NCBI GenBank assembly: GCA_024403455.1
Contig: JAKSRR010000013.1
Span: 1 to 64,000 of the forward strand
DNA from: Lachnospiraceae bacterium
GTDB lineage: Bacteria > Bacillota > Clostridia > Lachnospirales > Lachnospiraceae
Length of the DNA: 64,000 nucleotides
Direction: 5' to 3'
Positions within the stretch are counted from its first letter, which is position 1, and each line of letters begins with the position of its first letter. A program made the position numbers and the translations under genes. The notes below the pieces were generated by a model. It had not been told where the DNA came from. It ran no database searches and saw nothing but the letters and a program-made list of their open reading frames with translations. Shown here in pieces: positions 215-14,649 of this stretch.

Positions 215-261
215 ATATCAAGTGAATCCTCTCCTGTGCCCAAAAGAATCATCCCTGAAGG

Positions 262-456
262 CTACTTTCTTTCTACAAGCCGATTTAGCTTTACATCATA
301 AATCATTGGTCTTTTATTCATCTCTACAGGTTCTTTTCGTAAGCTATCTTCACCATAGATTTCCTCTTCTAATCTGCGTATATCGTCCTCTAATTGTTCT
401 TTCGTTATCGTTCCTACAAAGGGGCCATACATTTTCTCATCCTGATAACAAATCAT
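262..456 (-). CDS. Small protein (64 aa) coupled to the HTH-JAB regulator
   Basis: I do not recognise this family. The protein is soluble and charged, with an acidic middle (residues 19-40, QLEDDIRRLEEEIYGED) that looks helical and a basic end (LVERK). Its ATG overlaps the stop codon of the upstream HTH-JAB gene as ATGA (453-456), so the two are almost certainly translationally coupled and made in a fixed ratio. It has no signal peptide or membrane segment. A small partner encoded directly behind an HTH/metalloprotease protein suggests a binding partner, a substrate of the protease, or one half of a toxin-antitoxin-like pair. That is inference from position only. Confidence 0.6.
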   Translation of the reverse strand: MICYQDEKMYGPFVGTITKEQLEDDIRRLEEEIYGEDSLRKEPVEMNKRPMIYDVKLNRLVERK

Positions 457-1277
457 ACCGTTACCTCCTCGTAATATATATCACCGCGTTCTACAAATTT
501 ATCTAAAGCCATTAGCTGGGCTTTTCTTTCATCCCCAGTCTCCATATAATACCTATAAATATATCTTTCAAGTAGCGCTTCAGATATTTCTCTCACTGCA
601 CTATATCTATACACTGTTCCATCATGACATACAACAATTCCCATCTTATACCCCGCTCTATAAAAAGTATTAAAATCATCGGCTGATGGGGGCATACTGT
701 GAGGGTGCGTATGCATTGCCAGCACAGAAGCTTGGTTCTTCAGCAACTTATCGATGGACTTTGTGTGACGTATTTCACTAGTATTCGTCTCATCAAGTTT
801 CGAACAAATAATGCTACAAGTTCTCATATCAAGCCAATACATATCCTCATATTCTGTACCCGTACGATGATGCAACATCTCCTTTGCCTTTTGATACACC
901 AGTTTATTCACCGCACGGGAAGTTGTAATTATGTCAAACTTTTGTCTATATGCACCGCTAGCAATGTAGCTTCTGTCAATCAAAGTCTTTTTATTCCTGC
1001 CTACACGCTGGATTTCATCTTCCTCTAGCGAAAAGGATAACTTATAGCCCAAAGCTGACGCATATTTAAGCAAATTCTCTATAGTTGGAGTAGTACTGCA
1101 CGCCTCAAATCTTGCAATATTCGGTCTTTGAATTCCTGTAATATTTGCAATATCTTGCTGGGACATTCCTCTGTCTAATCTGATCTCTTTCAGTCTGTCA
1201 ACCAGTTCCTCGCAAACATTTCTACACTGTGACTCAACAACTAATTCAATATCTTCTGTAGTGATTAAATATTCCAT
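453..1277 (-). CDS. HTH (XRE) regulator fused to a JAB/MPN-type metalloprotease domain
   Basis: The protein has 274 aa. Residues about 25-80 are a Cro/CI-type helix-turn-helix (LKEIRLDRGMSQQDIANITG, then RPNIARFE). Residues about 150-235 resemble a JAB/RadC-like zinc metalloprotease. The key motif is HTHPHSMPPSADDF, i.e. H-x-H followed by S-x-x-D, which supplies the metal ligands of the JAMM motif, although the spacing between the second His and the Ser is one residue shorter than in RadC. The start is an ATG preceded by GGAGGGAAA. Two palindromes upstream are probably its own operators, so autoregulation is likely. By analogy with other HTH-plus-protease fusions it may be a repressor that is cut, or cuts a partner, on a signal. 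The downstream 64-aa protein overlaps its stop codon. Confidence 0.75.
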   Translation of the reverse strand: MEYLITTEDIELVVESQCRNVCEELVDRLKEIRLDRGMSQQDIANITGIQRPNIARFEACSTTPTIENLLKYASALGYKLSFSLEEDEIQRVGRNKKTLIDRSYIASGAYRQKFDIITTSRAVNKLVYQKAKEMLHHRTGTEYEDMYWLDMRTCSIICSKLDETNTSEIRHTKSIDKLLKNQASVLAMHTHPHSMPPSADDFNTFYRAGYKMGIVVCHDGTVYRYSAVREISEALLERYIYRYYMETGDERKAQLMALDKFVERGDIYYEEVTV

Positions 1278-1286
1278 TTTCCCTCC

Positions 1287-1336
1287 GTATCATTTATGAT
1301 ACATGCATTGTATCATAAGCGATACTTCCTTGCCAA
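1287..1336 (-). promoter_or_regulatory. Promoter with two operator palindromes for the HTH-JAB gene
   Basis: Two 16-bp sites of the form GTATC-N6-GATAC lie at 1287-1302 (GTATCATTTATGATAC, a near perfect palindrome) and 1310-1325 (GTATCATAAGCGATAC). Their centres are 23 bp apart. A minus-strand promoter fits with -35 TTGGCA (1331-1336), an 18-bp spacer and -10 TACAAT (1307-1312). The upstream palindrome overlaps the spacer and -10, and the other lies between the -10 and the ribosome binding site. This layout is what an autorepressed XRE regulator would show. Confidence 0.65.
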
Positions 1337-1361
1337 TATAAAGAGGAGCCAAAGCTCCTCT
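1336..1361 (-). terminator. Rho-independent terminator after the first TPR membrane protein
   Basis: A GAGGAGC/GCTCCTC hairpin (1343-1360) is followed on the minus strand by TTTATAT. It ends transcripts coming from the gene at 1434-2612. Nearly the same hairpin recurs at 2677-2696 and 8781-8798, with a related one at 11853-11868, so the terminators travel with the duplicated units. Confidence 0.6.
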
Positions 1362-1400
1362 ACTCATTTAGCACTTATCCCTGTAAAGCATATATTTTAT

Positions 1401-1418
1401 CCCAAAAGGACCGTCCCC
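1401..1418. repeat. 18-bp dispersed repeat, copy 1 (second copy 14422-14439)
   Basis: The 18-bp string cccaaaaggaccgtcccc occurs here and again at 14422-14439 in the same orientation, close to the two ends of the accessory block. Copy 1 continues into gatggtc, so it can form a short hairpin with its own gacc. No transposase is present in the window. It may be a REP-like dispersed element. Confidence 0.5.
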
Positions 1419-1433
1419 GATGGTCGTATTAGT

Positions 1434-2612
1434 TTATTTATCCCAATAAGAGTTAAACATGGTTCCACTAACTCCAGCATTCCTATAGTCAAAAATATCC
1501 ATTCGACGGTCACCGAATATTGCTATTTTAATATCAGAATCAGCGCGTTCTTCTACTACACAATCAACCCAAATATCTATTGCAGTTCCATCCTCCTTAT
1601 ACACAACATAAGAAAATGATTCATCTTTACTTATTCCCCATAGATTTAGAATGTCATATATATCACTACACCCATATTTTTCCATCACATCATAGAAGCC
1701 ATGTCCATGTTTACTTAGTTCCATTCCTGGCCAAATAAATTCTTCATACTCAACAAATTCATATGCAGGTGCATCATATATTTCCAGCGCTACAATTCCG
1801 TAAATCGTGTTTTCATTCATATGTTCACAAATAACTAAGAGTTGCTGATTCATATCTTGTGACGAGCTATATTGTATACTGGAATCCATGTAAAATATTC
1901 CCGGTTGAAGAATCGTATCTGTAGAATAATTGTAAGTTCTTGAATTGCCATCATCACTCGCATAAGTCAGGTTATAACCAGCAACGGCATCGTCAATGCT
2001 AAATTTTTCATCTACCATTACGCCATCATAATATGCACAATCCAACAAATCATAATACATTGGCCAAAATGCTTCTTCGTTAATTGTCGGTTGAGATATG
2101 GCTATCTCTTGCTCTGTTTCATCACATATATTTCCTTCCGAAACATCATATTGCTTAATGTAAGTTTTTATTTCTTCTATCTTCTTTTTAATGGTCTCAA
2201 TAGCATTCTCGTCTTCGATTTTTTCAAGAGCCTCATTAAGAACATTCAATGCCTCATCATAATCACCTGTTGCAATATATACATCAGCCAATCCAAGATA
2301 AGCCTCAACATTCTTAGGATCTATCTCGATTACTTTCGTATAAGATGCAATTGCCATTTCATAATTCATCTCATCCAAGTACTGACGAGCAAGTTCTAGT
2401 TCTTTTGCCACTTTTCTTTCTGGCTTTGCACTCGCCACCATAATTGCAATAAAAACCGCAATGCCAATCAACAGTATTGTTCCTAAAATTACGAATGGCA
2501 TCTTACTTTTCTTTTTCTTGATAACTGCCTGCTCAATTTCTATTTTCACTTCTTCTGTTGTCTTATCAACCCCCAGTAATTCTGTATCACCGCGTTCAAT
2601 TTCTTCACTCAT
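1434..2612 (-). CDS. TPR membrane protein with unique C-terminal domain (constant N-terminus type 1)
   Basis: The protein has 392 aa. Residues 1-36 form a short charged cytoplasmic tail ending in KKKKSK, residues 39-61 a single transmembrane helix, and about 66-150 TPR units (LARQYLDEMNYEMAIASYT, then a second and third helix pair). Residues 170-392 form an unfamiliar acidic extracellular domain rich in Tyr and Asp. By the positive-inside rule the TPR and tail lie outside the cell. The first 70 or so residues and the upstream 55 bases are almost identical at DNA level to the gene at 7417-8715, whereas the C-terminal domain shares nothing with it. GGAGG lies 7 bases before the ATG. Function is unknown. 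The layout suggests a surface sensor or scaffold whose tail has been exchanged. Confidence 0.7.
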   Translation of the reverse strand: MSEEIERGDTELLGVDKTTEEVKIEIEQAVIKKKKSKMPFVILGTILLIGIAVFIAIMVASAKPERKVAKELELARQYLDEMNYEMAIASYTKVIEIDPKNVEAYLGLADVYIATGDYDEALNVLNEALEKIEDENAIETIKKKIEEIKTYIKQYDVSEGNICDETEQEIAISQPTINEEAFWPMYYDLLDCAYYDGVMVDEKFSIDDAVAGYNLTYASDDGNSRTYNYSTDTILQPGIFYMDSSIQYSSSQDMNQQLLVICEHMNENTIYGIVALEIYDAPAYEFVEYEEFIWPGMELSKHGHGFYDVMEKYGCSDIYDILNLWGISKDESFSYVVYKEDGTAIDIWVDCVVEERADSDIKIAIFGDRRMDIFDYRNAGVSGTMFNSYWDK

Positions 2613-2668
2613 TACATTGCCTCCAAAATTTTATTATGCCCGACATATTATATCATGTAGCCGCCACT
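2402..2668 (-). repeat. DNA-identical N-terminal module, type 1 (copy at 8505-8771)
   Basis: This stretch covers the 5' flank, ribosome binding site, cytoplasmic tail and transmembrane helix of the gene at 1434-2612. It matches 8505-8771 with only about one base difference over some 260 bp. Identity falls sharply further into the coding region. Such a boundary in the middle of a gene points to recent duplication or gene conversion. Confidence 0.75.
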
Positions 2669-2672
2669 CCAC

Positions 2673-2696
2673 AAAAAGAGGAGCCAAAGCTCCTCT
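2673..2696 (-). terminator. Terminator after the Rpn-family gene
   Basis: The hairpin AGAGGAGC-CAAA-GCTCCTCT (2677-2696 region) is followed on the minus strand by TTTTTG. It lies 67 bases past the stop of the gene at 2763-3599 and just upstream of the -10 of the next gene (TATAAT, complement of 2646-2655 region). Confidence 0.7.
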
Positions 2697-2762
2697 ACCC
2701 ATATGACACTTATCTCCACAGCACAAAACTACTGCTCATTTAAATTAGAACGCCCCTTCTAA

Positions 2763-3599
2763 TTACAACTGCTTTGCTATTAAGAGCCTTTCATTCTCCG
2801 ATATTTTCAAGGCATCCATCGCTTGCTCCTTGGTTAGGCCTAGCGTATCCATAATCGTTCTTATGTCTTCAAGCCTTCCCGATTCTCGTCCTTCTCGCGT
2901 ACCCCTTTTATATTCACCAATCAGTCTTCTCTCATAATCATCTCTTGCGGCACATTGCTGTCTTATTTTCTCATCTTCACTTAATTCTTTTAAATGCGTT
3001 ACCATAGACATAAGCACTTCCTCTTCTCCGGCAAGTTGTTCCAACTCACTCATTGTTTCTGCCCTAAATATTCTTGCCCATTTTATTAGTTTTGGATTAA
3101 CATTTCCATCGGCCTCATCCACTTTTGTTAGATCCAACACACGAATATTTAGCTTGTCTGTATATAAATATCCTGTCTTTGTATCTAGGAGTTTGTATTC
3201 TGCATAAAATGCAGGATTATCCTTAAACAACGTAAAGTCCAGAATCCCTATATGATAGGTCTTTTTTAGTTCCGAATATTCCTGACCACTTTTCAGATAA
3301 TCGTATGTTCTCGACCAATAAAGCAGCGACCGTTCTGGCCAATTATGTTCATTTCTAACTTGTATCTCTAAGTCAATAATCTCATTTTCATTTAAGAGCA
3401 GTTTTACATCTAGCACACAGTCCTTTGAATCCACACTTCTTCCCAGCTCGATGGTATTTACTATAGTACAGCTAACGATATCGTTTTCGTCAATTTCCAT
3501 TAACACCGAAACTAGATTCTTTAGTACATCCTCCGCACTTTGCAATACTGCCTTAAACATGTAATCATTCTTCATTCCATAAAACTTCTTTTCTGCCAT
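2763..3599 (-). CDS. Rpn-family PD-(D/E)XK nuclease/transposase-like protein
   Basis: The protein has 278 aa and begins with the family signature KNDYMFKAVL (residues 10-19). The nuclease core follows as D60..D64-V-K and E78-I-Q80 (DLEIQVRNE), the D...(D/E)xK-type active site of the PDDEXK_2/Rpn group. The middle (EYSELKKTYHIGILDFTLF) and the C-terminal Gly/Arg/Glu stretch (RGTREGRESGR) followed by a TKEQAMDALKIS tail are also typical. E. coli Rpn proteins promote RecA-independent recombination by DNA cleavage. Sitting between two halves of a duplicated gene set, this nuclease is a candidate for the reshuffling seen here, but that is inference. AGGAGAC lies upstream of the ATG. Confidence 0.8.
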   Translation of the reverse strand: MAEKKFYGMKNDYMFKAVLQSAEDVLKNLVSVLMEIDENDIVSCTIVNTIELGRSVDSKDCVLDVKLLLNENEIIDLEIQVRNEHNWPERSLLYWSRTYDYLKSGQEYSELKKTYHIGILDFTLFKDNPAFYAEYKLLDTKTGYLYTDKLNIRVLDLTKVDEADGNVNPKLIKWARIFRAETMSELEQLAGEEEVLMSMVTHLKELSEDEKIRQQCAARDDYERRLIGEYKRGTREGRESGRLEDIRTIMDTLGLTKEQAMDALKISENERLLIAKQL

Positions 3600-3608
3600 A
3601 TAATAGTC

Positions 3609-3758
3609 TCCTTTCCGCAGGAGTATGGCTCAAACAAAGTTTTATTGTTTTCTCCTGCTTTATATTTTAGTGGTGAATTTAAGCAGGATTTTCTTGAAAA
3701 TAAAATAAATGATATGACGTTATATGATAATAGATATGAAAAACCGCTTATGCAATGA
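3609..3758 (+). pseudogene. Possible remnant of a plus-strand gene end
   Basis: The plus strand here reads as a protein-like C-terminus (FKQDFLENKINDMTLYDNRY, then EKPLMQ and TGA at 3756-3758) in a spacer that otherwise holds only regulatory sites. I recognise no family and see no start signal. It may be chance, or the end of a gene lost when the island was rearranged. The rest of the 3600-3956 spacer holds the inverted repeat and promoter listed separately. Confidence 0.2.
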
Positions 3759-3781
3759 TTATACCATACACATAAGCGGTT
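3742..3781 (-). promoter_or_regulatory. Extended -10 promoter nested in a terminator-like inverted repeat
   Basis: An 11-bp inverted repeat (AACCGCTTATG at 3742-3752 and its complement at 3771-3781) is followed on the minus strand by TTTTT, like a terminator for read-through from the right. Its loop holds an extended -10, ATGGTATAAT (TATAAT = complement of 3758-3763), 150 bases before the Rpn gene. The -35 is poor (GTTTAA). The repeat could also be an operator. Confidence 0.45.
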
Positions 3782-3928
3782 TAAACACATCTCAACAAAA
3801 ATACACATTTAATCAGATACGATAGTACGTAAGATAGTTATTTGAAATGGCCGATTACGTACCACTATTTGATAGAACAATTCAGGTGCTTGCATTCGTT
3901 TCATCTATAATTTGAGAAAAGGCAGAAT

Positions 3929-3952
3929 AAAGGCGGAAAAAATCCCGCCTTT
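3929..3952 (-). terminator. Terminator after the first zinc-ribbon TPR/DUF6273 gene
   Basis: AAAGGCGG and CCGCCTTT form an 8-bp stem just 5 bases past the stop codon at 3957. On the minus strand the stem is followed by ATTCTG, a weak U-tract. Confidence 0.55.
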
Positions 3953-3956
3953 TATA

Positions 3957-5300
3957 TTACAATCCAATTCGTATCACAGGACGTACTCCGTAGCCATAAA
4001 TTGACTCTATCCCCAAGCATAACACACCTCCATTTTCATTAACATACGGTGCACCACCAGTAGTAATAAATCCATATTTCGAGATATAGGGTGTTCTTAG
4101 CCACCAACACCAGCTGCTTCCTACCGATGGATTCACTGCGGATAATATTTCTCCTGATGTACTATTGCAATACTCCTCATATTCTTCAAAGGCCATCACA
4201 TAACCACCATCATGAACACTAACTTCCCATCCTGCATCATCAATCCCGAAAAAATTCTCAATTTCGCAAACCGACAATAAATACACTTTATCCTGGGTAT
4301 CATCTCCAAGACCATCATTTTCACACACTGTAGTTTGGATCCATTCTTTTTCATTCTCCGAAAATGCGGCCTCATAGAAATCATTATTTAGCCATTTTCT
4401 AATGTCACTTCTTTCCCACGATAAATCTTCTATATATCTATAATTGTATGGAATAGTATCCAAAATAAATTTACTCAATAGAGTTACGCTATTTCCGTCA
4501 TTCGTCAAAACAATCCACTCAATGGGAGTTTCCGAATTACTACTTCTGCTAATTTCTGTTGAGAACGGATTATTATCATTCCAATCCCATTCATACTGTC
4601 TATAAGTAATCCCATAAGCGCCATAGGTTACTGTATCTCCTACATTTGCCTGTAGTATTTCCTCAGCATCCATGCAGGTTAATGCTACATCACTGTCTTC
4701 ATCATTGGCTTCGTCTTCTGGATATAGTTCTGCTTCTATGGGCTTCTTCTGCTCCTCTGCATCCTTCTTTTTTTCTTCAACTCCAGTCTTAAGGTCAATA
4801 AGTTTTTTATCTCCGGTCTCTGCTTCTCCCGTGTCCAATGCTACGATAGCATTCTCATAGTATTCGATAGCAGCACCAATATCCCCTGCTATAATCGCTT
4901 CATCAGCCATTGCTACATACGTATTTGCAAGGCCTTCGTACGCTTCCACATTCTTCGGGTCTATCTCAATCGCTTTCGTATAAGAAGCAATAGCCATCTC
5001 ATACTGCATTTCATCCAAATATTGATTTGCTAATTTCAGTTCTTTTCTTGCCTTCACTTCTGGACTAGCATTTGATACAAAAAAGATCACAAAAGTCATA
5101 ATTCCAATCAAAAGAACTGCGCCTGCCATAATAAATGGAAGTTTATCTTTTTTCTTTTTCGCTACGACAGGATTTGTTGTAACTTCATTTCCTGACTGGT
5201 GATAATCTATTCTCAATGGCGCAGCAGCAGTCTGTTCACCACAAGCAATACAAAATTTTGCATCATCGTCATTCTTCGCGCCACATTTTATACAATACAT
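3957..5300 (-). CDS. Zinc-ribbon/TPR membrane protein with DUF6273 domain
   Basis: The protein has 447 aa. Residues 1-22 are a zinc ribbon (C3xxC6 and C17xxC20), residues 49-54 are basic, 55-76 are a transmembrane helix, and about 85-160 are TPR units. After an acidic linker, residues about 210-447 form a DUF6273 domain. That domain has the landmarks VGDTVTYGAYGITY, PIEWIVLTNDG, SDIRKWLNNDFY, DKVYLLS, WWLRTP and the end GVRPVIRIGL. The zinc ribbon should be cytoplasmic and the DUF6273 domain outside the cell. The C-terminal part resembles formylglycine-generating-enzyme/C-type-lectin folds, which bind ligands, but no ligand can be named. The first ~115 codons are nearly DNA-identical to the gene at 10033-11754. 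It starts 27 bases behind the ATPase gene at 5328-6746 and is probably cotranscribed with it. Confidence 0.8.
   Translation of the reverse strand: MYCIKCGAKNDDDAKFCIACGEQTAAAPLRIDYHQSGNEVTTNPVVAKKKKDKLPFIMAGAVLLIGIMTFVIFFVSNASPEVKARKELKLANQYLDEMQYEMAIASYTKAIEIDPKNVEAYEGLANTYVAMADEAIIAGDIGAAIEYYENAIVALDTGEAETGDKKLIDLKTGVEEKKKDAEEQKKPIEAELYPEDEANDEDSDVALTCMDAEEILQANVGDTVTYGAYGITYRQYEWDWNDNNPFSTEISRSSNSETPIEWIVLTNDGNSVTLLSKFILDTIPYNYRYIEDLSWERSDIRKWLNNDFYEAAFSENEKEWIQTTVCENDGLGDDTQDKVYLLSVCEIENFFGIDDAGWEVSVHDGGYVMAFEEYEEYCNSTSGEILSAVNPSVGSSWCWWLRTPYISKYGFITTGGAPYVNENGGVLCLGIESIYGYGVRPVIRIGL
4966..5300 (-). repeat. DNA-identical N-terminal module, type 2 (copy at 11420-11754)
   Basis: About 335 bp from the start codon (zinc ribbon, transmembrane helix, first TPR) match 11420-11754 with only one or two base differences. 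The match ends abruptly at the start codon on one side and inside the TPR on the other. The sequences upstream and downstream are unrelated. Confidence 0.8.
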
Positions 5301-5327
5301 TTCTTATACTTCTCCGTAAACCATCTG

Positions 5328-6746
5328 TTAATCATAGAGCGAATCTAATGTAAGCAAAATAACGTCCTTATCAACCAACGTCTCAAACCAGTCTGTATAT
5401 CCAGAGAGGGAAAAGAATAAATATTTTATAAGTTTATATTTTGCAGAGATTAGTCTCCCCCTACGAATTAGGGAGTCATAAATACCTTTATCGATCTTTT
5501 CATTTTTGAATTTACACTCACCAATTACAGCCATTTTATCTATCTCAGACAATGCTACTACATCAATATCTGTAGACTGGGTTCTTACTTGTCCATTCTT
5601 ATCTGCAATATTCTCTACTCCCCACCAAGTACCAATGGAAGTCACAAAACATCCATACTCACCTGCAATTCCCTTCATCAAAGTATAATATCTGCACATT
5701 TCTTCAAATACTGCCCCCATAAAGGAATGTATTACCGGCTTAACAACCTTTTTATAATATACTTCCCCTTGTCCCACCTCGATTATGCTGGTAGCTTTAG
5801 GAATGAATTCATACCAAAACTTAAACATATAATCTTTTAGAACATACTGCGTTTTCTTTCTATTCTGCTCTTCTGTTATACATTTTTTCTTTTCTACCAA
5901 CCCTACGTTAATTAGCTTATCTAAGGAATAAAGAACAGTCTGCTCTTTTTCTCCGATTTTTGTTGCTATTGTATTAAGCACATTCTCTCCAGATGCAATC
6001 TGCTCCACAATATTATTTACAAGCGATATGTCTGCAAACTCTTGCGTTAATAGATTTCTTGTTTCATCATACAAATATCCGTCTGTTCTAAAAAACAGTC
6101 TTATTATATTTTCATCAATACTCTTTCTAGGATCAATCATCGAAAGATACTTTGCAACACCGCCAGTAATTCCATAACAGATTGCCTTATCCTCATTTGT
6201 ATACCCCGGAACAAATTTGGCCGCATCCATATAATTGAACGCTTCCAGTTTAATCTGAGAATCTCTTCTTCCAAACAACGGACTCTTTTCACTTAGCACC
6301 TTATTTTCCATAAAACTAAGCGCGGAACCGCACAGAATCACTTTAAGATTCTTATCATTCCAAATTGTATCTATATACTTTTGCAATACAGAAAGAAGCG
6401 CCTCATCTTTCTCAGCCCAATACGGTAATTCATCTATTACAAGAACAAGTTTATCTTCACCTATATTCTTATCTATAAAATCAAATACCGCCTCTGTGGT
6501 ATTAAAACTAATGTCCTCTATTCCAGGCATAAGCACATCCAATACCTGCTTTGAAAACAATTCAAGATTTCTATTTTTGCCAACTTTGGTAGCTGTATAA
6601 AAAATAGTCCTTTTATCTTTAACAAACTCGGCTATAAGCGTGGATTTTCCAATACGTCTCCGCCCATATATAACAGTCATGCCTATTCCAGCTTTATCAT
6701 AGAAATCTTTTAATGACTCAAGCTCTTTTTCTCTACCAATGAACAT
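5328..6746 (-). CDS. Archaeal-type AAA ATPase with C-terminal nuclease-like (DUF234) domain
   Basis: The protein has 472 aa and opens FIGREKELESL. The Walker A is YGRRRIGKST (residues about 28-37) and the Walker B is LVLVIDELPYW (about 108-118), followed by VILCGSALSFME with a sensor residue and GGVAKYLSMI. A winged-helix section (residues about 260-300, LDKLINVGLVEKK) leads to a PD-(D/E)XK-like core in which DIDVVAL and GECKF supply the acidic residues and Lys. This is the 'AAA_14/DUF234' arrangement common in archaea and Clostridia. The cellular role is unknown and DNA-related functions are proposed. It precedes the zinc-ribbon/DUF6273 gene by 27 bases, so the two form an operon. Confidence 0.8.
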   Translation of the reverse strand: MFIGREKELESLKDFYDKAGIGMTVIYGRRRIGKSTLIAEFVKDKRTIFYTATKVGKNRNLELFSKQVLDVLMPGIEDISFNTTEAVFDFIDKNIGEDKLVLVIDELPYWAEKDEALLSVLQKYIDTIWNDKNLKVILCGSALSFMENKVLSEKSPLFGRRDSQIKLEAFNYMDAAKFVPGYTNEDKAICYGITGGVAKYLSMIDPRKSIDENIIRLFFRTDGYLYDETRNLLTQEFADISLVNNIVEQIASGENVLNTIATKIGEKEQTVLYSLDKLINVGLVEKKKCITEEQNRKKTQYVLKDYMFKFWYEFIPKATSIIEVGQGEVYYKKVVKPVIHSFMGAVFEEMCRYYTLMKGIAGEYGCFVTSIGTWWGVENIADKNGQVRTQSTDIDVVALSEIDKMAVIGECKFKNEKIDKGIYDSLIRRGRLISAKYKLIKYLFFSLSGYTDWFETLVDKDVILLTLDSLYD

Positions 6747-7227
6747 ACAGTATACTCCTTATACAGGCCGTTTTATTCAAATGTTTTTGAACAAAATTAT
6801 TTTGAACAAAGTGTACTATAAATTGTAATGTATATCAATAGCTTTCTATCATTCCATTTCATCTGAAGCAAAAAGGGGCTATGAAAAAAGCATAGTCCCT
6901 TTTTAATAATTCTATGTAACTCTATACGGCATAACAAACAACGAACACTTATTACCAAAACCGCAAAAAGAATACGGCGAAGAAAAAGCACTAGAAATAC
7001 TACGCTTTTTCAATGCCATAAACAAACAATAAATAGAAATAAAATGGTTTTTAGCCGTTCAAATCTATACCCTATAACCTACCTCTTTACTCAAAATCTT
7101 CTGCAGCAGTCATCGTGATTTGATAAACCCTAACGAACGTTGTGAGGGTTTATTTTATGCGTATTTATAAGGTTTTAGAGCATAAAAAAACCGCCTAGTA
7201 ACACTAGACGGTTTCTGTTAATATCGA
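6747..7227. other. Gene-poor spacer with three hairpins and coding debris
   Basis: No convincing gene lies here. A strong symmetrical hairpin at 6870-6903 (AAAAAGGGGCTATG paired with CATAGTCCCTTTTT) can stop transcription both ways. On the plus strand, 6910-7032 reads like a protein tail (YGITNNEHLL, PKPQKEYGEEKALEILRFF, stop TAA), possibly a gene remnant. A plus-strand terminator-like stem lies at 7123-7156 (TAAACCCT/AGGGTTTA then TTTTA). A minus-strand terminator lies at 7187-7215 (ACCGCCTAGT/ACTAGACGGTT with a run of T). The last sits directly behind the tRNA fragment at 7228-7248, as a real tRNA terminator would. Confidence 0.5.
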
Positions 7228-7248
7228 ATGCGGAAGATGGGACTTGAA
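7228..7248 (-). repeat. 21-bp duplicate of the tRNA-Leu 3' end (attachment-site-like)
   Basis: These 21 bases are identical to 14475-14495, the last 20 bases (T-arm and acceptor stem) of the intact tRNA-Leu plus one flanking base, in the same orientation. Homology stops at both ends. A terminator follows (7187-7215). Duplication of a tRNA 3' end is the classic footprint of an element integrated by a tyrosine recombinase, which would make 7229-14475 (7.2 kb) the inserted or duplicated segment. No integrase is in the window. Confidence 0.6.
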
Positions 7249-7416
7249 GTTTGCGTCACGCCACAAAATCCAATATTCATGCGGGTTTGCACGTTCTTTC
7301 AACACAGGGAATACATTAGGGAATACAAATCTTAGCAGAAAGGAGAATTCATCACTACTACTGTATTCCAATGTTTCTGACATTCACCTTTTTTTATGCG
7401 ACCTGCATTTTATGTA

Positions 7417-8715
7417 CTACAATCCAATTCGTATCACAGGACGTACTCCGCCATAATCGTGGACATTGTCACCAAATACATCGACACCACCGTCATCATG
7501 GACACTTGCTGCAAAGTAATTATCAACGCCGGGCGTTCGCAACCACCAGCACCAAACTCCACCTGCTGCTGGATTTTCAGCAACTATGAGGCCACCTGAT
7601 CTTTCATTGCAAAACGCTCCATAGGATGCCCAATCATGCTCGCCGAATTTATCATATCCACTATAATCCTCCATTTTCACCCCAAAATACTGTTCAATTT
7701 CTTCTATCGACAATAAAAAAACCTTATCTTGTGTGGTATTGCCACCCGCCGCACCATGGAAGGTATTATCTCCATTTACACAAGTGGTTGTCTGAACATG
7801 AGCCTTTTCTATCTCTGTAAAGGCAGTGTTATAAAAGTCATTGTTAAGCCATTCTCTTATTTCACTTTTTTCCCAGGTTATAGGTTTCCATTTCTGATCG
7901 TAGGGAATAGTATCTAACACATATTTACTTAGTAGTGTTACGCTTCCTTCATCCTTTACAAGCACAATCCACTCGATGGGTGTTTCTGGTTTACTTTGTT
8001 TTCCTGTTTCTGTTACTACTGTACCGTAATCATTCCACTCATAGCTTCGTTTAGTAATCATATAGGTACCATAGGTTACTACATCACCTTCACTAGCCTG
8101 CATAATCTCTTCTGCGGTCATGCAGATGAAGCCCTTAGTTTCTTCACCTTCTGCTTCATTGGTATCCATAATATTTTCATGGACATTATCCTTTTCAACT
8201 GCAGTCTGATTTTGTTGCTCAGTTTCTTGCTTCATCTCTTGGACAGATACTAAAAGTTCTGCAAGACCTTCATCTCCTGTCTCTGCCTCACCCTGCTCTA
8301 AAGCCGTAATAGCATTCTCATAGTATTCGATAGCTAGATCCATATTTCCTACAATGATTTCCTTTTCAGCCATAGCCACATAAGTATTTGCAAGACCTTC
8401 GTATGCATCAACATTCTTGGAATCTATCTCAATTGCCTTTGTATAGGAAGCAATAGCCATCTCATAGTCCATCTCATCAAGATACTGACGAGCCAGTTCT
8501 AATTCTTTTGCCACTTTTCTTTCTGGCTTTGCACTCGCCACCATGATTGCAATAAAAACCGCAATGCCAATCAACAGTATTGTTCCTAAAATTACGAATG
8601 GCATCTTACTTTTCTTTTTCTTGATAACTGCCTGCTCAATTTCTATTTTCACTTCTTCTGTTGTCTTATCAACCCCCAGTAATTCTGTATCACCGCGTTC
8701 AATTTCTTCACTCAT
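7417..8715 (-). CDS. TPR membrane protein with DUF6273 domain (constant N-terminus type 1)
   Basis: The protein has 432 aa. Its N-terminal 80 or so residues (acidic tail, KKKKSK, transmembrane helix 39-61) are DNA-identical to those of the gene at 1434-2612. Then come TPR units (about 66-155) and a DUF6273 domain (about 200-432) with PIEWIVLVKDEG, SEIREWLNNDFY, DKVFLLS, WWLRTPGVDNYF and the end GVRPVIRIGL. It therefore joins the N-terminal module of one paralogue type to the C-terminal module of the other. The tail between WWLRTP and GVRPV is rich in Asn, Asp, Tyr, His, Ser and Ala and differs from all other copies. A surface ligand-binding role is inferred. The -10 is TGATATAAT about 40 bases upstream of the ATG. 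Confidence 0.8.
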   Translation of the reverse strand: MSEEIERGDTELLGVDKTTEEVKIEIEQAVIKKKKSKMPFVILGTILLIGIAVFIAIMVASAKPERKVAKELELARQYLDEMDYEMAIASYTKAIEIDSKNVDAYEGLANTYVAMAEKEIIVGNMDLAIEYYENAITALEQGEAETGDEGLAELLVSVQEMKQETEQQNQTAVEKDNVHENIMDTNEAEGEETKGFICMTAEEIMQASEGDVVTYGTYMITKRSYEWNDYGTVVTETGKQSKPETPIEWIVLVKDEGSVTLLSKYVLDTIPYDQKWKPITWEKSEIREWLNNDFYNTAFTEIEKAHVQTTTCVNGDNTFHGAAGGNTTQDKVFLLSIEEIEQYFGVKMEDYSGYDKFGEHDWASYGAFCNERSGGLIVAENPAAGGVWCWWLRTPGVDNYFAASVHDDGGVDVFGDNVHDYGGVRPVIRIGL

Positions 8716-8771
8716 TACATTGCCTCCAAAATTTTATTATGCCCGACATATTATATCATGTAGCCGATGTT
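8505..8771 (-). repeat. DNA-identical N-terminal module, type 1 (second copy)
   Basis: This is the partner of 2402-2668. It includes the first ~70 codons of the gene at 7417-8715, its ribosome binding site and its promoter region. The adjoining terminator hairpin (8781-8798) also matches that at 2678-2696 with one base change. Confidence 0.75.
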
Positions 8772-8775
8772 CCAC

Positions 8776-8798
8776 AAAAAGAGGAGCCGAAGCTCCTC
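8776..8798 (-). terminator. Terminator upstream of the 7417-8715 gene
   Basis: GAGGAGC-CGAA-GCTCCTC (8781-8798) is followed on the minus strand by TTTTTG. It insulates the gene at 7417-8715 from transcription arriving from the right and is a near copy of the hairpin at 2677-2696. Confidence 0.65.
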
Positions 8799-9193
8799 CT
8801 TAAATCTTTTGTCATTGTTGTTCTCATCCGATCGCATTATATAACGACTCGATTATAAATATTATTTTATATCACTCGGACTAATATATGTTCTACTCTT
8901 CATATTTACACAACTTGCGTACTTATTCGGCTGGCTTTTTTATTCCTAATTAATGTTATACCTCATAACCAGCAAATACTCGTTCGCAATAAAAAATACA
9001 TAAATGAAAGACTATACTAAAATCATGACACAGGAATAGTGTGATCTTTTTTCAAAATAGTTACCAAAACAAAAAGGAACAGACTAACATATTACAATCA
9101 GGCTGTTCCTCCATCTCCAGGAGAATCTGTTTCCGTTAATAGTTTTATGCAGCTAATTTTATCAGCCTGCCGAACTTGTACCAGAGACTTGTC
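8799..9193. other. Spacer without a recognisable gene
   Basis: The sequence is very AT-rich, with stop codons in all frames and no tRNA. The only clear signal is a terminator at 9075-9108: on the minus strand GGAACAG and CTGTTCC pair around a loop of about 20 bases and are followed by TTTTTG. It lies behind the Rpn remnant at 9194-9427. The equivalent spacer in the first unit (2613-2762) is much shorter, so sequence was lost or gained here. Confidence 0.5.
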
Positions 9194-9427
9194 TTACTGT
9201 TCTTTCGTGTTTAGCAGATCAAGATAAGTCTCCCATTCGTGTTCAGGTACATTGCACATTTTCAGTGCTTCTTTGGCACTGCAGTTTGTTGTCTGCATTA
9301 ATCCAAGTAAAATGGAGTTTATTTTTGCATGCCCCTCCGCAAGTCCTGAAGCATGTCCCTTGGCATATTCATCCTGCATCCTTAACTGGAACTTCATAAA
9401 CTCTGTCTTCCTCCTGAATAGATTCAT
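9194..9427 (-). pseudogene. C-terminal remnant of an Rpn-family nuclease gene
   Basis: The 77-aa frame reads KTEFMKFQLRMQDEYAKGH, then GLAEGHAKINSILLGLM and SAKEALKMCNVPEHEW. This is the Gly/Glu/His-rich linker and C-terminal helix pair that end Rpn/PDDEXK_2 proteins (compare the end of the gene at 2763-3599). The catalytic N-terminal 200 residues are absent. The ATG overlaps the stop of the chimeric gene upstream (ATGA at 9424-9427), so the remnant may still be translated. It occupies the same place, between two membrane-protein genes, as the complete Rpn gene in the first unit. Confidence 0.65.
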
Positions 9428-9900
9428 TGTAGCAAAATTTTGGAGTGGTGCAATCTTAATAATCCGACTCTTATTACAGGACGCACACCTCCGTTATCAG
9501 TACTATCGCTACCATCTACGACGACACCTCCGTTTTCGACAAAAGCCACATAGGCCTTGTGGAAACCCGGTGAGCGCAACCACCAATATTCTCCACCGTA
9601 GACAGGGTTCTCCGTCAATAGAATCCCTTCATTTTTCTCGTTACAAAGTACAACATACGTTTCCCCATCAATATCGCCATTCACATATCTCCCCCATTCG
9701 GATGGACCAACGCCAAAGTATTTTTCCACTTCAGAAAGCGACAACAAATAGACCTTATCCTGGGTATCGCTTCCACCGGAAGGATACCATTCATCTCCCG
9801 GCTGATAATCGCCATTTCCACCAACCGCCCCATAGTAAGGATTATCTTCATTCACTCCCTGTAATTCTGTTTCACTGCATTCAGTTTCTTCACTCATCAT
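9424..9900 (-). pseudogene. Deletion chimera: type 1 N-terminal tip fused to half a DUF6273 domain
   Basis: The 158-aa frame starts MMSEETECSETELQGVN, matching the first 15 residues of the type 1 proteins, and jumps directly to EDNPYYGAVGG, which matches the middle of the DUF6273 domain of the gene at 12770-14251 (VNEDNPYWGAN). The transmembrane helix, TPR and first half of DUF6273 are gone. The join falls at a shared Val-Asn. At the other end the usual final residues GVRPVIR(V)GL run on for eleven more residues because the stop codon is lost. The product would be a soluble half-domain and is probably non-functional, although the frame is open and a GGAGG precedes it. Confidence 0.65.
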
Positions 9901-10032
9901 TTACCTCCAACGGATTAATGAATAAAACACATACCTTACAGTTAATGTCCCCTATCATCATATTAAATGAGGATTTCTTGTTACAAATTGCACATTCATA
10001 TCATTACCAGGGAATTATGTCCAACAATATAA

Positions 10033-11754
10033 CTACCAGTTTGCGCAAGGTATCAGCTCATAATTATTATAGGCTGCTCGTATTTGAGTATTATATTCAC
10101 TTTCAGAGTTGATTTCGATCTCATAATATGAATTATCATTATCATAATATCGTATAGACCGCCCATATTCATCTTGAGTTCCGGGTTCTTCGGAGTCAAA
10201 TCCTGCTGCAACAATCTTACATTTTCCACCTTCAAGTTTATAAATCCACGTCACTGCAAATGGTCCAACATAACCATGACAGACGATATACCCATTTCTT
10301 GGTGCATAATCTGTTCCACCCGGAGTCCCTGTTCCAAAGCCTAATTCTTCTTCTATTACCTGTCCATCACTTATATAACACACCCACTGCTCGTAATAAT
10401 AATCAGCATACACAAAAACTTCTGGAATCTCATCCGCATCCACATAAATGTAATTCCAATTAAGTCCAGCATGCGTCTCTGCTAAATATTGCTCATATAA
10501 TTCTTCCCACCATCCATCATTTTCCTCATCTTGCTCAGGCACAGTAATTACTTCTCCTATAACCTCTGCGGCAAGAACTCTGAATCCACTAAATACGCTT
10601 CTTTCGTCTTTGACTATGCGCACTCTTATTCGATTACCTTCGTAAGTGTAATCATAAATATCTTCCCCTTCCAAATAGTTAAATGCTCTTATCTCTGTGT
10701 CAAATTCCACTACGCACTGTTTCCCGTCCGCTTCAACAATACGCGGATTGCGGAGTTTTGTAGACTTCCCCGCGCTCCATCCTGTATAACAGCTTATCAT
10801 GTATCCATTCTCATCAGAGTGAGCGTTTTTCAAGGCGTTTTCATCTCCACAAAGAGAATAACTCAGTTCGCGAAGTTGCTCCTTTGAAATATAGAACATA
10901 CCATCTACATCAATAGCTACCAAATTTCCAATGTAAGCATCTGATGGATGTTCACTATTCATCAGGTAAAACTCTTCTTCATACACCCCTCCCGCACATA
11001 TTTCATTTAGCCAAGCTACACTTTCCTCCGCAGAGCCCCACTGAAAAACATACGATAAATATCCACCCAAGTATCCCGTTATAGTAGGTTGTTCAAAAAC
11101 CCAATCATACATTTCCAATGTTCCAAGTGCAGCTAACACATCTTCATCCAACCCATCTTCTTCATCTGGTTCAGGCTCATTTCCCAAATTATTATCTGCT
11201 AGTATTTCTTCCTTCTCTTCTTTTTTCTCTTCAATATCCTGGCGGAGAATGCCCAATCTTTCCTCCTTCGTTTCCTTTTCCCCTCGTTCCAGTGTATCAA
11301 GTGCCTTCTGATAATACTCAATTGCCAAATTGTTATACCCTTCTGCATATGCTTTTTCAGCCATAGCGAGATAAGTGTTAGCCAATCCCTCGTACGCGTC
11401 CACGTTCTTTGGATCTATCTCAATCGCTTTCGTATAAGAAGCAATAGCCATCTCATACTGCATTTCATCCAAATATTGATTTGCTAATTTCAGTTCTTTT
11501 CTTGCCTTCACTTCTGGACTAGCATTTGATACAAAAAAGATCACAAAAGTCATAATTCCAATCAAAAGAACTGCGCCTGCCATAATAAATGGAAGTTTAT
11601 CTTTTTTCTTTTTCGCTACGACAGGATTTGTTGTAACTTCATTTCCTGACTGGTGATAATCTATTCTCAATGGCGCAGCAGCAGTCTGTTCACCACAAGC
11701 AATACAAAATTTTGCATCATCGTCATTCTTCGCGCCACATTTTATACAGTACAT
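10033..11754 (-). CDS. Zinc-ribbon/TPR membrane protein with unique long C-terminal region (constant N-terminus type 2)
   Basis: The protein has 573 aa. The zinc ribbon (C3, C6, C17, C20), transmembrane helix (55-76) and first TPR are DNA-identical to the gene at 3957-5300. After the TPR (to about residue 165) and an acidic linker, residues 205-573 are unlike that gene. They form an acidic, Tyr/Trp-rich region ending with a section (YIYVDADEIPEVFVYADYY) that resembles the 'D-x-D-x-I-P-E-L' surface repeats of Clostridia. The function is unknown. It is predicted to be anchored by one helix with everything after residue 77 outside. Its own promoter is an extended -10 (complement of 11819-11824) 65 bases upstream. 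Together with the genes at 1434, 3957 and 7417 it shows that head and tail modules assort independently. Confidence 0.75.
   Translation of the reverse strand: MYCIKCGAKNDDDAKFCIACGEQTAAAPLRIDYHQSGNEVTTNPVVAKKKKDKLPFIMAGAVLLIGIMTFVIFFVSNASPEVKARKELKLANQYLDEMQYEMAIASYTKAIEIDPKNVDAYEGLANTYLAMAEKAYAEGYNNLAIEYYQKALDTLERGEKETKEERLGILRQDIEEKKEEKEEILADNNLGNEPEPDEEDGLDEDVLAALGTLEMYDWVFEQPTITGYLGGYLSYVFQWGSAEESVAWLNEICAGGVYEEEFYLMNSEHPSDAYIGNLVAIDVDGMFYISKEQLRELSYSLCGDENALKNAHSDENGYMISCYTGWSAGKSTKLRNPRIVEADGKQCVVEFDTEIRAFNYLEGEDIYDYTYEGNRIRVRIVKDERSVFSGFRVLAAEVIGEVITVPEQDEENDGWWEELYEQYLAETHAGLNWNYIYVDADEIPEVFVYADYYYEQWVCYISDGQVIEEELGFGTGTPGGTDYAPRNGYIVCHGYVGPFAVTWIYKLEGGKCKIVAAGFDSEEPGTQDEYGRSIRYYDNDNSYYEIEINSESEYNTQIRAAYNNYELIPCANW
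11420..11754 (-). repeat. DNA-identical N-terminal module, type 2 (second copy)
   Basis: This is the partner of 4966-5300: codons 1 to about 112 with one or two base differences, then abrupt divergence. Confidence 0.8.
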
Positions 11755-11818
11755 ACTCTAGTATCTCCAACTCTAAATATGATTGCCTTCTATAAATTAT
11801 TCAACACTCTCGGTACCA

Positions 11819-11850
11819 ATTATACCATGTAGTTATAATCAGCCATGAAA
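11819..11850 (-). promoter_or_regulatory. Extended -10 promoter of the 10033-11754 gene
   Basis: CATGGTATAAT on the minus strand (TATAAT = complement of 11819-11824, preceded by TGG) has the extended -10 form. No good -35 is seen at 17 bp. The terminator hairpin at 11853-11868 is immediately upstream. Confidence 0.5.
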
Positions 11851-11868
11851 AAAGGAGCCTGAGCTCCT
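11851..11868 (-). terminator. Terminator after the DUF4160 remnant
   Basis: AGGAGC-CTGA-GCTCCT is followed on the minus strand by TTTTTTC. It closes the transcript that starts upstream of the gene at 12175. Confidence 0.6.
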
Positions 11869-11933
11869 CTTCTTGTGTAGTACTTATTTTAATCCCGTCA
11901 ATGACTTCTATTTACTAAACCGCTCTATTTGTC

Positions 11934-12151
11934 TTAACAATAATATGTAATATCTTCAAAATAGCTCAGCCACTTTTTACATATTAAGTCTGTATTTGCT
12001 TCAATTATTTTCACTAATTTCCGAAGCGTCGCCTCTGGAATTTTGGAGTTATTGTTTGCCACTAAGACCTTTCCTCGTTTTGTAATCCATAATTATGTCG
12101 CATTCTCAACAGGCTCCCCTTCGCGAACGTGCACATGAACGGGTTCTAAAG
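11934..12151 (-). pseudogene. DUF4160-family gene broken by an in-frame stop
   Basis: The minus strand from 12146 reads EPVHVHVREGEPVENAT, then a TAA stop, then LWITKRGKVLVANN...KIPEATLRKLVKIIEA and ...WLSYFEDITYYC before TAA at 11934-11936. The two parts join without a frame change. They match the DUF4160 pattern: a His-rich HVHV start, then (L/I)P..xLrkl...i......l...W. The stop sits where a Lys codon would fit, consistent with one A-to-T change. The first ~15 residues are also missing. DUF4160 proteins often pair with small partner proteins such as DUF2442 in loci resembling toxin-antitoxin modules. Confidence 0.55.
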
Positions 12152-12174
12152 GTCCCCCCTACATGGCACCTATT

Positions 12175-12444
12175 TTAATAACCTGAGGCATTCGTAAAAC
12201 CTCCCTTTTGGGAAAATTCCATTATAAGATGCGCATTATTCTCAACTATCTTTTCAAAACTTTCCAGTTCCTCAGCCGAAAAGCCATGATTCTCTTCCCA
12301 TATATATCCTGGCAAATAGCAGGTTACATCTTTAAATCCACCTTCCACGGGTTTCTCTATATATACCTTCACAGTACCATCTTCACGCATATTGGAATGT
12401 GCAATGAATGTATTATCATCCAACGTTAAGTACTCATACATCAT
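12175..12444 (-). CDS. Hypothetical protein (89 aa) upstream of the DUF4160 remnant
   Basis: This is a small soluble protein with no membrane segment. It opens MMYEYLTLDDNTFIAHSNM, carries VKVYIEKPVEGGF and ends LIMEFSQKGGFTNASGY. I recognise it only as a conserved-looking hypothetical. I place the start at the ATGATG pair (12444) because AGGAAG lies about 10 bases upstream. An upstream TTG (12465) is possible. It lies 23 bases before the DUF4160 remnant in the same direction and was probably its partner. An extended -10-like TGGTAAAAT lies about 90 bases upstream. Confidence 0.6.
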   Translation of the reverse strand: MMYEYLTLDDNTFIAHSNMREDGTVKVYIEKPVEGGFKDVTCYLPGYIWEENHGFSAEELESFEKIVENNAHLIMEFSQKGGFTNASGY

Positions 12445-12465
12445 ATCTTCTTTCTTCCTATCCAA

Positions 12466-12769
12466 AAAATTTCTGCATTAATCTATTTTCGACCTTAATC
12501 ACCTATGAATATAGTCCCCTTTTCTCATGATTTCATTTTACCATAACGAACATCCTGCAGTTTTATTCCACATATACCCACGGCATTCATAATACATAAA
12601 AACACTTAGTAATTCCTTACATTTTTCATGTATATTAATCGAAGCAAAAATACAGTTAAACCATATATTTATTGTGAATCAATCGATAGTGCATGCGAAC
12701 ATCAATAAGCTATATTAAAAATATATGCTAACTTAAAAGGCGGGCATCAATTCCCACCCTTTGTAGTCT
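12466..12769. other. AT-rich spacer with promoter and terminator only
   Basis: No gene is visible. Near 12537-12547 the minus strand has TATGGTAAAAT, a plausible extended -10 for the gene at 12175. At 12737-12762 an imperfect stem (AAAGGGTGGG/CCCGCCTTTT) ends the transcript of the gene at 12770-14251. Confidence 0.45.
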
Positions 12770-14251
12770 TTATAATCCAATTCTTATTACAGGGCGCACA
12801 CCAATGCAAGACATGGCGCCTGTACCAGACATATCAACAGCATCGTTTGTTGAAACATACGCTACACAATCACTTGCGTAGCCTGGTGAACGTAACCACC
12901 AACCTTCGAATTCGCCTGTTGCACATTCAGACTTTAAAAGACCTCCTAATTTCTCATCGCATAGATTCCAATATTCATCTAGGTCTATTACTTCATAATA
13001 AAAGCTATAAAAGTCCGCCGCAGTTATACCAAAATACTGTTCTAGCTCTTCTAGCGATAGCAAATATACTTTATCTTTGGTGTCATTACCTCCAGCTGGA
13101 TAATCTTCTTCCCCCGGATCAACCCACGTAACCAAACCATTCGCACCCCAATATGGATTGTCTTCATTTACGCAAGTAGTTGTCTGAATATGGGCCTTTT
13201 CAGTTTCTGTAAAGGCTTCGCCATAAAAATCTTGATTAAGCCATAACCTAAGGCAACTGTCTTCCCACGTTATGGCGCCCCTCTCGCTACTATACGGAAG
13301 AATATCCACCTCATATTTACTAAGCAAAGTTACGCTTCCTCCATCATTGGCAATTACAATCCACTCAATAGGGGTCACTGGGTTACTAGTCCTATCCGTT
13401 TCTATATTTCCATCAGAACTCCATTTATATTTCCTAAACGTAATCCCATAGGTACCATATGTTACTACATCCCCCGCATTAGCCTGCATGATCTCTTCTG
13501 CAGTCATACAGGCTAATTCGGTTTCGATATCATTCTCAGTCTCTGTCTCTTCCGCTCCTCCATTAGCCTCATTATCTTTCTCCTCTGGCAAAAATTCTGT
13601 TTCTACCACACCGTTTCCACCTAAAAATACATTTACAATAGCATCCATTTCCTGCTGCGTTAATGTGCCTGTGGTCATAGTATCAATAACTTCTACCACG
13701 TCACCGGCAAGAAGATCTATCTCATCTCCGCTATTAGAAATAACATTTACTTTTCCCTCAACACACTCCACGCGGGTAATGCCTAAGTTAGGATTATAGT
13801 CTACCGTGAATATGGTACCTCTTACACTGATGGTTGCATTCGGTGTCACCACCTGAAAACCATCTTCAGGCTCAAGTGGATTATCAATCTTGATATAGGA
13901 CTTTCCTTCTGTAACATTAATTGTTACAAGACCCTCTTTAGGATTACCAACGGCATCCACGGAAAATTTAGTACTGGATCTAACCGCGATATGCTTATCC
14001 TCATCTACAAGAAGATCTAGTAATGATTCATCTCCAACAGTTACAAAATCATTCGGAATCAGTTTCATATCCTTGGCTATTTCAATAACATTTTGATTTC
14101 GTTCAAGATCTACGGAACCAGATTGGTCATTTACCGTAACACTTCTGAAAGACTCTTTTCTGTTAAGTACTATGATTAACACGACAGCAACAATAGCCAG
14201 AATCGCAGCGCAAGCAATGATTAATACCTTTTTGTTTTTAAGTTTCTTCAT
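12770..14251 (-). CDS. FecR-domain membrane protein with DUF6273 domain
   Basis: The protein has 493 aa. Residues 1-6 are basic and residues 8-30 are a transmembrane helix or uncleaved signal anchor. Residues about 40-200 form a FecR-like domain: the diagnostic VVTPNATISVRGTIFTVDYN at about 133-152, and a C-terminal FecR section ending ISNSGDEIDLLAGDVVEV. After an acidic linker rich in Glu/Thr, residues about 240-493 form a DUF6273 domain (PIEWIVIANDGG, LWLNQDFY, DKVYLLS, WWLRSPGYASDC, GVRPVIRIGL). FecR domains bind partner proteins outside the membrane, and here the DUF6273 head could be the sensor. This is a third N-terminal architecture joined to the same tail family. The promoter has an extended -10 at 14308-14313. 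The gene ends the island just before the tRNA-Leu. Confidence 0.8.
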   Translation of the reverse strand: MKKLKNKKVLIIACAAILAIVAVVLIIVLNRKESFRSVTVNDQSGSVDLERNQNVIEIAKDMKLIPNDFVTVGDESLLDLLVDEDKHIAVRSSTKFSVDAVGNPKEGLVTINVTEGKSYIKIDNPLEPEDGFQVVTPNATISVRGTIFTVDYNPNLGITRVECVEGKVNVISNSGDEIDLLAGDVVEVIDTMTTGTLTQQEMDAIVNVFLGGNGVVETEFLPEEKDNEANGGAEETETENDIETELACMTAEEIMQANAGDVVTYGTYGITFRKYKWSSDGNIETDRTSNPVTPIEWIVIANDGGSVTLLSKYEVDILPYSSERGAITWEDSCLRLWLNQDFYGEAFTETEKAHIQTTTCVNEDNPYWGANGLVTWVDPGEEDYPAGGNDTKDKVYLLSLEELEQYFGITAADFYSFYYEVIDLDEYWNLCDEKLGGLLKSECATGEFEGWWLRSPGYASDCVAYVSTNDAVDMSGTGAMSCIGVRPVIRIGL

Positions 14252-14307
14252 GTATTTATCCCACTTTGATAATTTTTCAATAGATAGTTCTATCCATCTA
14301 ACTGATT

Positions 14308-14316
14308 ATTATACCA
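14308..14316 (-). promoter_or_regulatory. Extended -10 promoter of the FecR/DUF6273 gene
   Basis: CATGGTATAAT on the minus strand (TATAAT = complement of 14308-14313) lies 57 bases before the ATG. A matching -35 is not evident. Confidence 0.45.
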
Positions 14317-14421
14317 TGCGTACAAAAAAGAGCTGAGCTGTGTAAAGAGAGGCTCCCTCTCAAAACACGATTCCGGTCTTTTCGTATGTTATAGATTTTA
14401 ATTCAAAGGGACACTCCACTG

Positions 14422-14439
14422 CCCAAAAGGACCGTCCCC
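14422..14439. repeat. 18-bp dispersed repeat, copy 2
   Basis: Identical to 1401-1418 (cccaaaaggaccgtcccc). It lies between the FecR/DUF6273 gene and the tRNA-Leu terminator. Confidence 0.5.
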
Positions 14440-14442
14440 AAC

Positions 14443-14470
14443 AAAAAAGAGAGGTGATTATCACCTCTCT
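14443..14470 (-). terminator. Terminator of tRNA-Leu
   Basis: AGAGAGGTGA and TCACCTCTCT pair with almost no loop, and TTTTTTG follows on the minus strand, 5 bases past the tRNA end. Confidence 0.8.
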
Positions 14471-14475
14471 AATTA

Positions 14476-14559
14476 TGCGGAAGATGGGACTTGAACCCAC
14501 ACGCAAATACATGCACAAGATCCTTAGTCTTGCCTGTCTGCCAATTCCAGCACTTCCGC
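14476..14559 (-). tRNA. tRNA-Leu (AAG anticodon)
   Basis: The 84-nt sequence folds as a class II tRNA. The acceptor stem GCGGAAG pairs with CTTCCGC, with discriminator A. The D-arm has TGG..TTGGCAGAC, and the anticodon stem CAAGA/TCTTG encloses loop CTAAGGA (anticodon AAG). A variable arm follows, and the T-loop is GGTTCAAGTCC. Leu identity agrees with the long variable arm and A73. The CCA end is not encoded. The promoter is at 14571-14599 and the terminator at 14443-14470. Its last 20 bases are duplicated at 7229-7248. Confidence 0.93.
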
Positions 14560-14570
14560 ACGACTTAAAT

Positions 14571-14599
14571 AGAATACCAAATCTGCATATTCTTGTCAA
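14571..14599 (-). promoter_or_regulatory. Promoter of tRNA-Leu
   Basis: -35 TTGACA (complement of 14594-14599), a 17-bp spacer and -10 TATTCT (complement of 14571-14576), placed 12 bases before the tRNA 5' end. Confidence 0.8.
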
Positions 14600-14615
14600 C
14601 TATTATTTTAAAATA

Positions 14616-14642
14616 TTTTCCCGCTCCGCAAGTGCGGCTTCG
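14616..14642 (-). terminator. Weak terminator after cysK
   Basis: A GC-rich hairpin CCGC-AAGT-GCGG (14626-14637), extended by GCxxCG pairs, lies about 10 bases past the cysK stop. An A/T-rich tract with some T runs follows on the minus strand. Confidence 0.4.
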
Positions 14643-14649
14643 CCGAACA

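Follow-up and report, generated by a model that had tools for sequence, protein, structure and literature searches.

Probable segmental homogenisation of membrane anchors in a modular surface-protein family of a Lachnospiraceae bacterium

Genes that share one end and differ at the other raise the question of which part has moved between them. We examined this question in a window of 64,000 nucleotides from a Lachnospiraceae bacterium (assembly GCA_024403455.1, contig JAKSRR010000013.1, positions 1 to 64,000 of the forward strand). Near its left end, the window contains four genes (1434, 3957, 7417 and 10033, named after their coordinates) in which an N-terminal anchoring head, made of a transmembrane (TM) segment read from the sequence and tetratricopeptide repeats (TPR), is joined to differing C-terminal tails. 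A sequence-only reading of this DNA had proposed a modular system, in which the membrane interface is kept fixed and the outward-facing domains are exchanged. The modular layout and the conserved membrane interface were found as described, but the recent exchange of outward domains was not, since the shared tracts cover the anchor only. The best explanation is probably a segmental homogenisation of anchors in a modular surface-protein family, by ectopic homologous recombination through the conserved 5' segment. The genes and tracts concerned are as follows.

1434..2612, minus strand: gene A1434 (392 aa), acidic/Lys-rich N-terminus, TM segment, TPR (Pfam), tail without known family
2400..2685, minus strand: copied tract in A1434 (gene nt -73 to 213), covering promoter region, N-terminus and TM segment, up to the first TPR
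3957..5300, minus strand: gene 3957, zinc ribbon, TPR and DUF6273 tail (Pfam)
4960..5294, minus strand: 335-nt tract in 3957 (gene nt 7-341), perfect identity to 11414..11748
7417..8715, minus strand: gene A7417, acidic head, TPR and DUF6273 tail (Pfam)
8503..8788, minus strand: copied tract in A7417, partner of 2400..2685 (281/286 nt identical)
10033..11754, minus strand: gene 10033, zinc ribbon and TPR, tail without recognised family (Pfam)
11414..11748, minus strand: 335-nt tract in 10033 (gene nt 7-341), partner of 4960..5294
12770..14251, minus strand: FecR-type head with N-terminal hydrophobic segment and DUF6273 tail (Pfam); head unrelated, tail related

Copied anchor tracts in the window

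The five genes were confirmed at these coordinates, and all four head genes are complete open reading frames (ORFs). Two head types were recognised by Pfam, as had been claimed: Zn_Ribbon_1 with TPR in 3957 and 10033, and TPR with no Zn_Ribbon_1 match in 1434 and 7417. Genes with the same head indeed carried unrelated tails, no mutual match being found between the tails of 3957 and 10033 or of 1434 and 7417 at E up to 1 with filters off. The DUF6273 tail (PF19789) was found on three kinds of head, the FecR head included, and scored 76.9 bits in 3957, 99.9 in 7417, 86.1 in 12770 and 40.5 in a short ORF at 9424 (cut-off 23.5). The tail of 1434 had no other match across 299 genomes of the bacterial family, and that of 10033 was weakly like the tail of a head gene on contig C31 (24 bits).

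The near-identity of the heads in DNA, also noted earlier, was about 100% over a 5' block but uneven, and it collapsed after gene nucleotide 341 in one pair and 213 in the other. Genes 3957 and 10033 shared 335 nucleotides without a mismatch (codons 3-113), ending near the end of the first TPR. Genes 1434 and 7417 were identical at 281 of 286 nucleotides, from the upstream terminator to codon 71, ending just before the first TPR as drawn by Pfam. The synonymous differences between 3957 and 10033 were 0 of about 69 inside the tract and 18 of 23 outside it (Fisher P 6e-15); for 1434 and 7417 they were 1 of 45 and 14 of 20 (P 8e-9). Past the tract ends the synonymous sites were saturated in both pairs and the tails were unrelated, and the DNA 5' of both tracts was also unrelated. 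Because synonymous sites are all but identical inside the tracts and saturated outside, chance or protein-level constraint is ruled out for the tracts. Since both tracts are flanked by unrelated or saturated DNA, the recorded event is the copying of a short anchor segment between genes; each pair has the tract of paralogue identity, with diverged DNA on both sides, that is expected of gene conversion. Recent exchange of the outward domains appears unsupported by these tracts, which seem to record anchor copying only. Among 355 within-genome pairs of head genes from six genomes of the genus, an exact run of at least 60 nt was found only in the two window pairs.

The match between 10033 and a paralogue on contig C18 spanned the 5' flank of 10033 itself and continued to about codon 190, which makes 3957 the likely recipient of the copied anchor. 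The 10033/C18 pair has different tails and would support an older tail replacement. True tail exchange would also follow from a recent whole-gene duplication of both kinds of gene (A and Z), with the 3' part then replaced in one copy of each pair. We hold this to be unlikely, though not negligible; the C18 comparison suggests that replacements have occurred, but the unrelated DNA 5' of both tracts points to a short segment and not to a whole gene. An assembly artefact, in which the reads of one head were collapsed or mis-joined into two genes, is improbable, even though the genome consists of 35 contigs at about 82% completeness and exact repeats of 0.3 kb are difficult for short reads.

The head family in the genome, the genus and the bacterial family

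The genome (G000) was found to contain 12 head loci with eight or nine tail classes. In a quick head tree these 12 heads formed one group (support 80) around a core of ten (support 98), and they carried several unrelated tails. In the genus, the head was present in 10 of 35 genomes (67 matches at E up to 1e-10, of which 64 were analysed). The tails fell into 30 classes, the largest being DUF6273 (15), with and without a preceding zinc ribbon; a zinc ribbon was found in 29 of 62 head proteins.

Pairs were called unsaturated if their synonymous distance (pS) did not exceed 0.5 over TM-TPR1, and 13 of the 355 within-genome pairs were of this kind. The earlier reading had taken steady divergence along the whole gene in relatives as the mark of ordinary vertical paralogues, and at the level of the genus the answer was divided. 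Eight of the 13 pairs broke after TM-TPR1, pS rising by at least 0.28 in the next part (4 in G000, 2 in G006, 1 in G007 and 1 in G015), whereas five were steady (a rise of at most 0.20). Breaks were found in 5 of 6 pairs with different tails and in 3 of 7 pairs with tails of the same class. Some cross-species orthologues (G011/G010 and G025/G034/G007) kept one head-tail pair with steady divergence along the full length, as vertical paralogues would. The steady pairs and these orthologues indicate that vertical descent is common and that copying is an overlay. Ordinary vertical paralogy, in which the N-terminal half is under strong constraint and the tails evolve fast, can also draw on the conserved TPR residues, but protein constraint cannot keep 69 synonymous sites unchanged beside saturated ones, and other paralogue pairs are without constraint in that part. 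It is very improbable as the explanation here and is contradicted for the two window pairs, yet it is the best account of many other members.

With a head profile, matches at E up to 1e-15 were obtained in 30 of the 299 genomes sampled from the bacterial family, the window genome among them. Nine others of these, covered in part, gave 26 head genes and 32 within-genome pairs. A like pattern was found in a second genus (G168), where four tandem genes have a common block from about -75 to +250. The synonymous distance was 0.22-0.44 inside this block and 0.69-0.83 in the next part, and in none of the 6 pairs were the tails clearly related (best E 0.005, 5 bits, filters off). One of these tails is only 55 residues long, and three resemble YD-type repeats when inspected by eye. 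The common block is missing from a fifth head-like gene of G168. The remaining 26 pairs had a pS under 0.5 in one case only (G127), which was steady and had a tail in common.

The G168 head genes alternate with NTP_transf_2/HEPN, Zeta_toxin/AAA and AAA-ATPase genes. The cluster (L199, 267-10354) is preceded by a pair of Ser/Thr kinase genes, a weak match to PP2C and a protein with LysM. Ser/Thr kinases were also present in the head cluster of UBA4364, a relative in the genus of the window genome. In UBA4364 (L137, L138), head genes are interspersed with DUF4176 genes, long proteins without Pfam match and zinc-ribbon Ser/Thr kinases; this region may be a type VII secretion neighbourhood.

DUF6273 tails and retroelements

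DUF6273 is reported, in the passages cited, as a C-type-lectin-like domain of phage tentaclins and of Faecalibacterium prophage targets of diversity-generating retroelements (DGRs); the variable region of the phage targets falls in this domain, and the tentaclin authors propose receptor or cell binding (PMC10743442, PMC11792537). In UBA4364 (L184), a reverse transcriptase gene adjoins a repeat pair (4233-4302 and 4839-4908) whose 9 differences all fall at A. The target ORF (4766-5689) holds the variable copy near its C-terminal end and matches DUF6273 (E 6e-12). This is probably a prophage DGR whose target domain is also that of the window tails, and its DUF6273 gene has the properties of a DGR variable protein, which were not found for the window genes. 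That the window tails are themselves hypermutated by a DGR is extremely improbable: the reported phage targets and the UBA4364 element speak for it, but no RVT_1 match was found in the own genome (about 82% complete), the scan used for UBA4364 gave no A-biased repeat pair in window 1-15000, and the paralogue tails are saturated at synonymous sites and not A-specific variants.

In a hydropathy scan of 79 related ORFs, 50 had a hydrophobic segment at the N-terminus, 10 had one further in but ahead of the domain, and 16 had none; three are cut. Of eight hand-picked DUF6273 proteins, four contained a Ser/Thr kinase, two ECF sigma regions, one FecR and one a zinc ribbon. In L080 and L083, ECF sigma-factor regions, a hydrophobic segment and DUF6273 were observed in a single polypeptide. 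The mean entropy was 3.0 between WWLR and GVRP and 2.1 in the preceding domain, two other loops being about equally variable. An outward binding or sensing domain would fit these features.

The locus and its neighbouring genes

The window begins at the end of the contig (C5), and the 14-kb stretch with the head genes runs from there to a tRNA-Leu gene at 14475-14560. Its G+C content was 0.377, whereas 71 overlapping stretches of that size, all right of it in the window, gave values of 0.415-0.431; right of 1-14475 the G+C content was 0.427. This region looks like a genomic island. All the genes discussed are transcribed leftward, and the FecR-DUF6273 gene lies on the tRNA side of the four head genes, which are interspersed with three others.

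2763..3599, minus strand: Rpn-type nuclease gene (PF12784, E 5e-39; NCBIfam Rpn family)
5328..6746, minus strand: ATPase_2/DUF234 gene, matching PADLOC candidate defence model PDC-S27 (E 6e-59)
9424..9900, minus strand: short ORF, A-type start joined directly to the C-terminal part of DUF6273 (Pfam)

The start of ORF 9424-9900 is 83% identical to A1434/A7417 over 58 nt. With its truncated DUF6273 it looks like a deletion remnant, and it could be silent. At 453-1277, an HTH_3 protein was observed for which Pfam shows HTH only; its HTHP...D stretch resembles a JAB/MPN metalloprotease motif.

Comparison with known systems

The phage tentaclins and Faecalibacterium targets have the same Pfam domain, with a variable stretch near the C-terminal end (PMC10743442, PMC11792537, in the passages cited). 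The window genes, in contrast, are chromosomal and carried on TM-TPR anchors, no reverse transcriptase was found in the incomplete genome, and their variation is paralogue divergence and not mutagenic retrohoming. Firmicutes zinc-ribbon/TM proteins with NTF2-like DUF architectures are described as alike in zinc ribbon, TM segment, outward domain and kinase fusions (PMC3924330, in the part cited). The window family differs in its TPR stalk, its many unrelated tails and its recent anchor copying, and two of its four heads are without zinc ribbon. TcaA/YvbJ-type proteins are further zinc-ribbon/TM proteins of Firmicutes with ligand-type outward domains.

In the bacterial surface-protein families of pilin, Opa, VlsE and TprK, segmental gene conversion brings copies of the variable, exposed part into an expressed gene. 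The window family is alike in that tracts of a few hundred nucleotides are copied among paralogues of one genome, but what is copied here is the constant anchor, with the exposed part untouched. Polymorphic toxins (e.g., MuF) also join a constant N-terminus to differing C-terminal modules; the window proteins are TM-anchored, and no toxin family was recognised on their four tails in Pfam or NCBIfam at E up to 0.01. Gene conversion among surface proteins is of a known kind, as are modular proteins with a constant and a variable part; the window family departs from them in that the anchor is copied instead of the exposed part. No description of anchor copying with the exposed part spared, in a TPR-anchored family, was found in the literature searched.

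Proposed mechanism and significance

The products would be membrane proteins that cross the membrane once. Their small N-terminus (zinc ribbon or acidic/Lys-rich) would lie in the cytoplasm, followed by one TM segment, a short TPR stalk and a C-terminal module, the last two presumably facing outward. Neighbouring paralogues would recombine through the conserved 5' segment, which comprises the start or promoter and the anchor up to the first TPR. The process would be ectopic homologous recombination, in the simplest and likeliest case gene conversion, presumably of RecA type; it would transfer about 0.3 kb of anchor from gene to gene and leave the downstream tail untouched. Copied without the tail, the anchor would remain uniform, whereas tails would diverge and now and then be replaced, so that a few anchors come to bear many tails. 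The tails are presumed to bind ligands, with DUF6273 acting as a C-type-lectin-like binder or sensor.

The Rpn gene of the window is suggestive in this context. Rpn proteins are described as nucleases with a proposed role in DNA transfer, and one of them reportedly protects E. coli from certain phages (PMC10327210, PMC5350276, in the passages cited). In 6 of 34 cases a PDDEXK_2 gene lay at most 5 kb from a head, where 0.68 cases would be expected; this was noticed post hoc, and the regions may simply be variable islands. In L139 (9482-13565), a DUF6273 head gene was observed between two near-alike Rpn-like genes (PDDEXK_2 E 0.004, below cut-off). It is conceivable, though doubtful, that promoter, anchor and TPR form a dedicated recombination module. 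Such a repeated homology block, in islands with nucleases such as Rpn, would let a cell reassort outward modules on fixed anchors, as a constant/variable surface-receptor assembly system in Lachnospiraceae.

If the account by anchor copying is right, it would turn classical antigenic variation around: copying would keep the buried anchor uniform, and the exposed module would be free to differ. The synonymous break at the first TPR would serve as a tract-level marker for finding such families, and gut bacteria would have a simple route to repertoires of surface binders or sensors.
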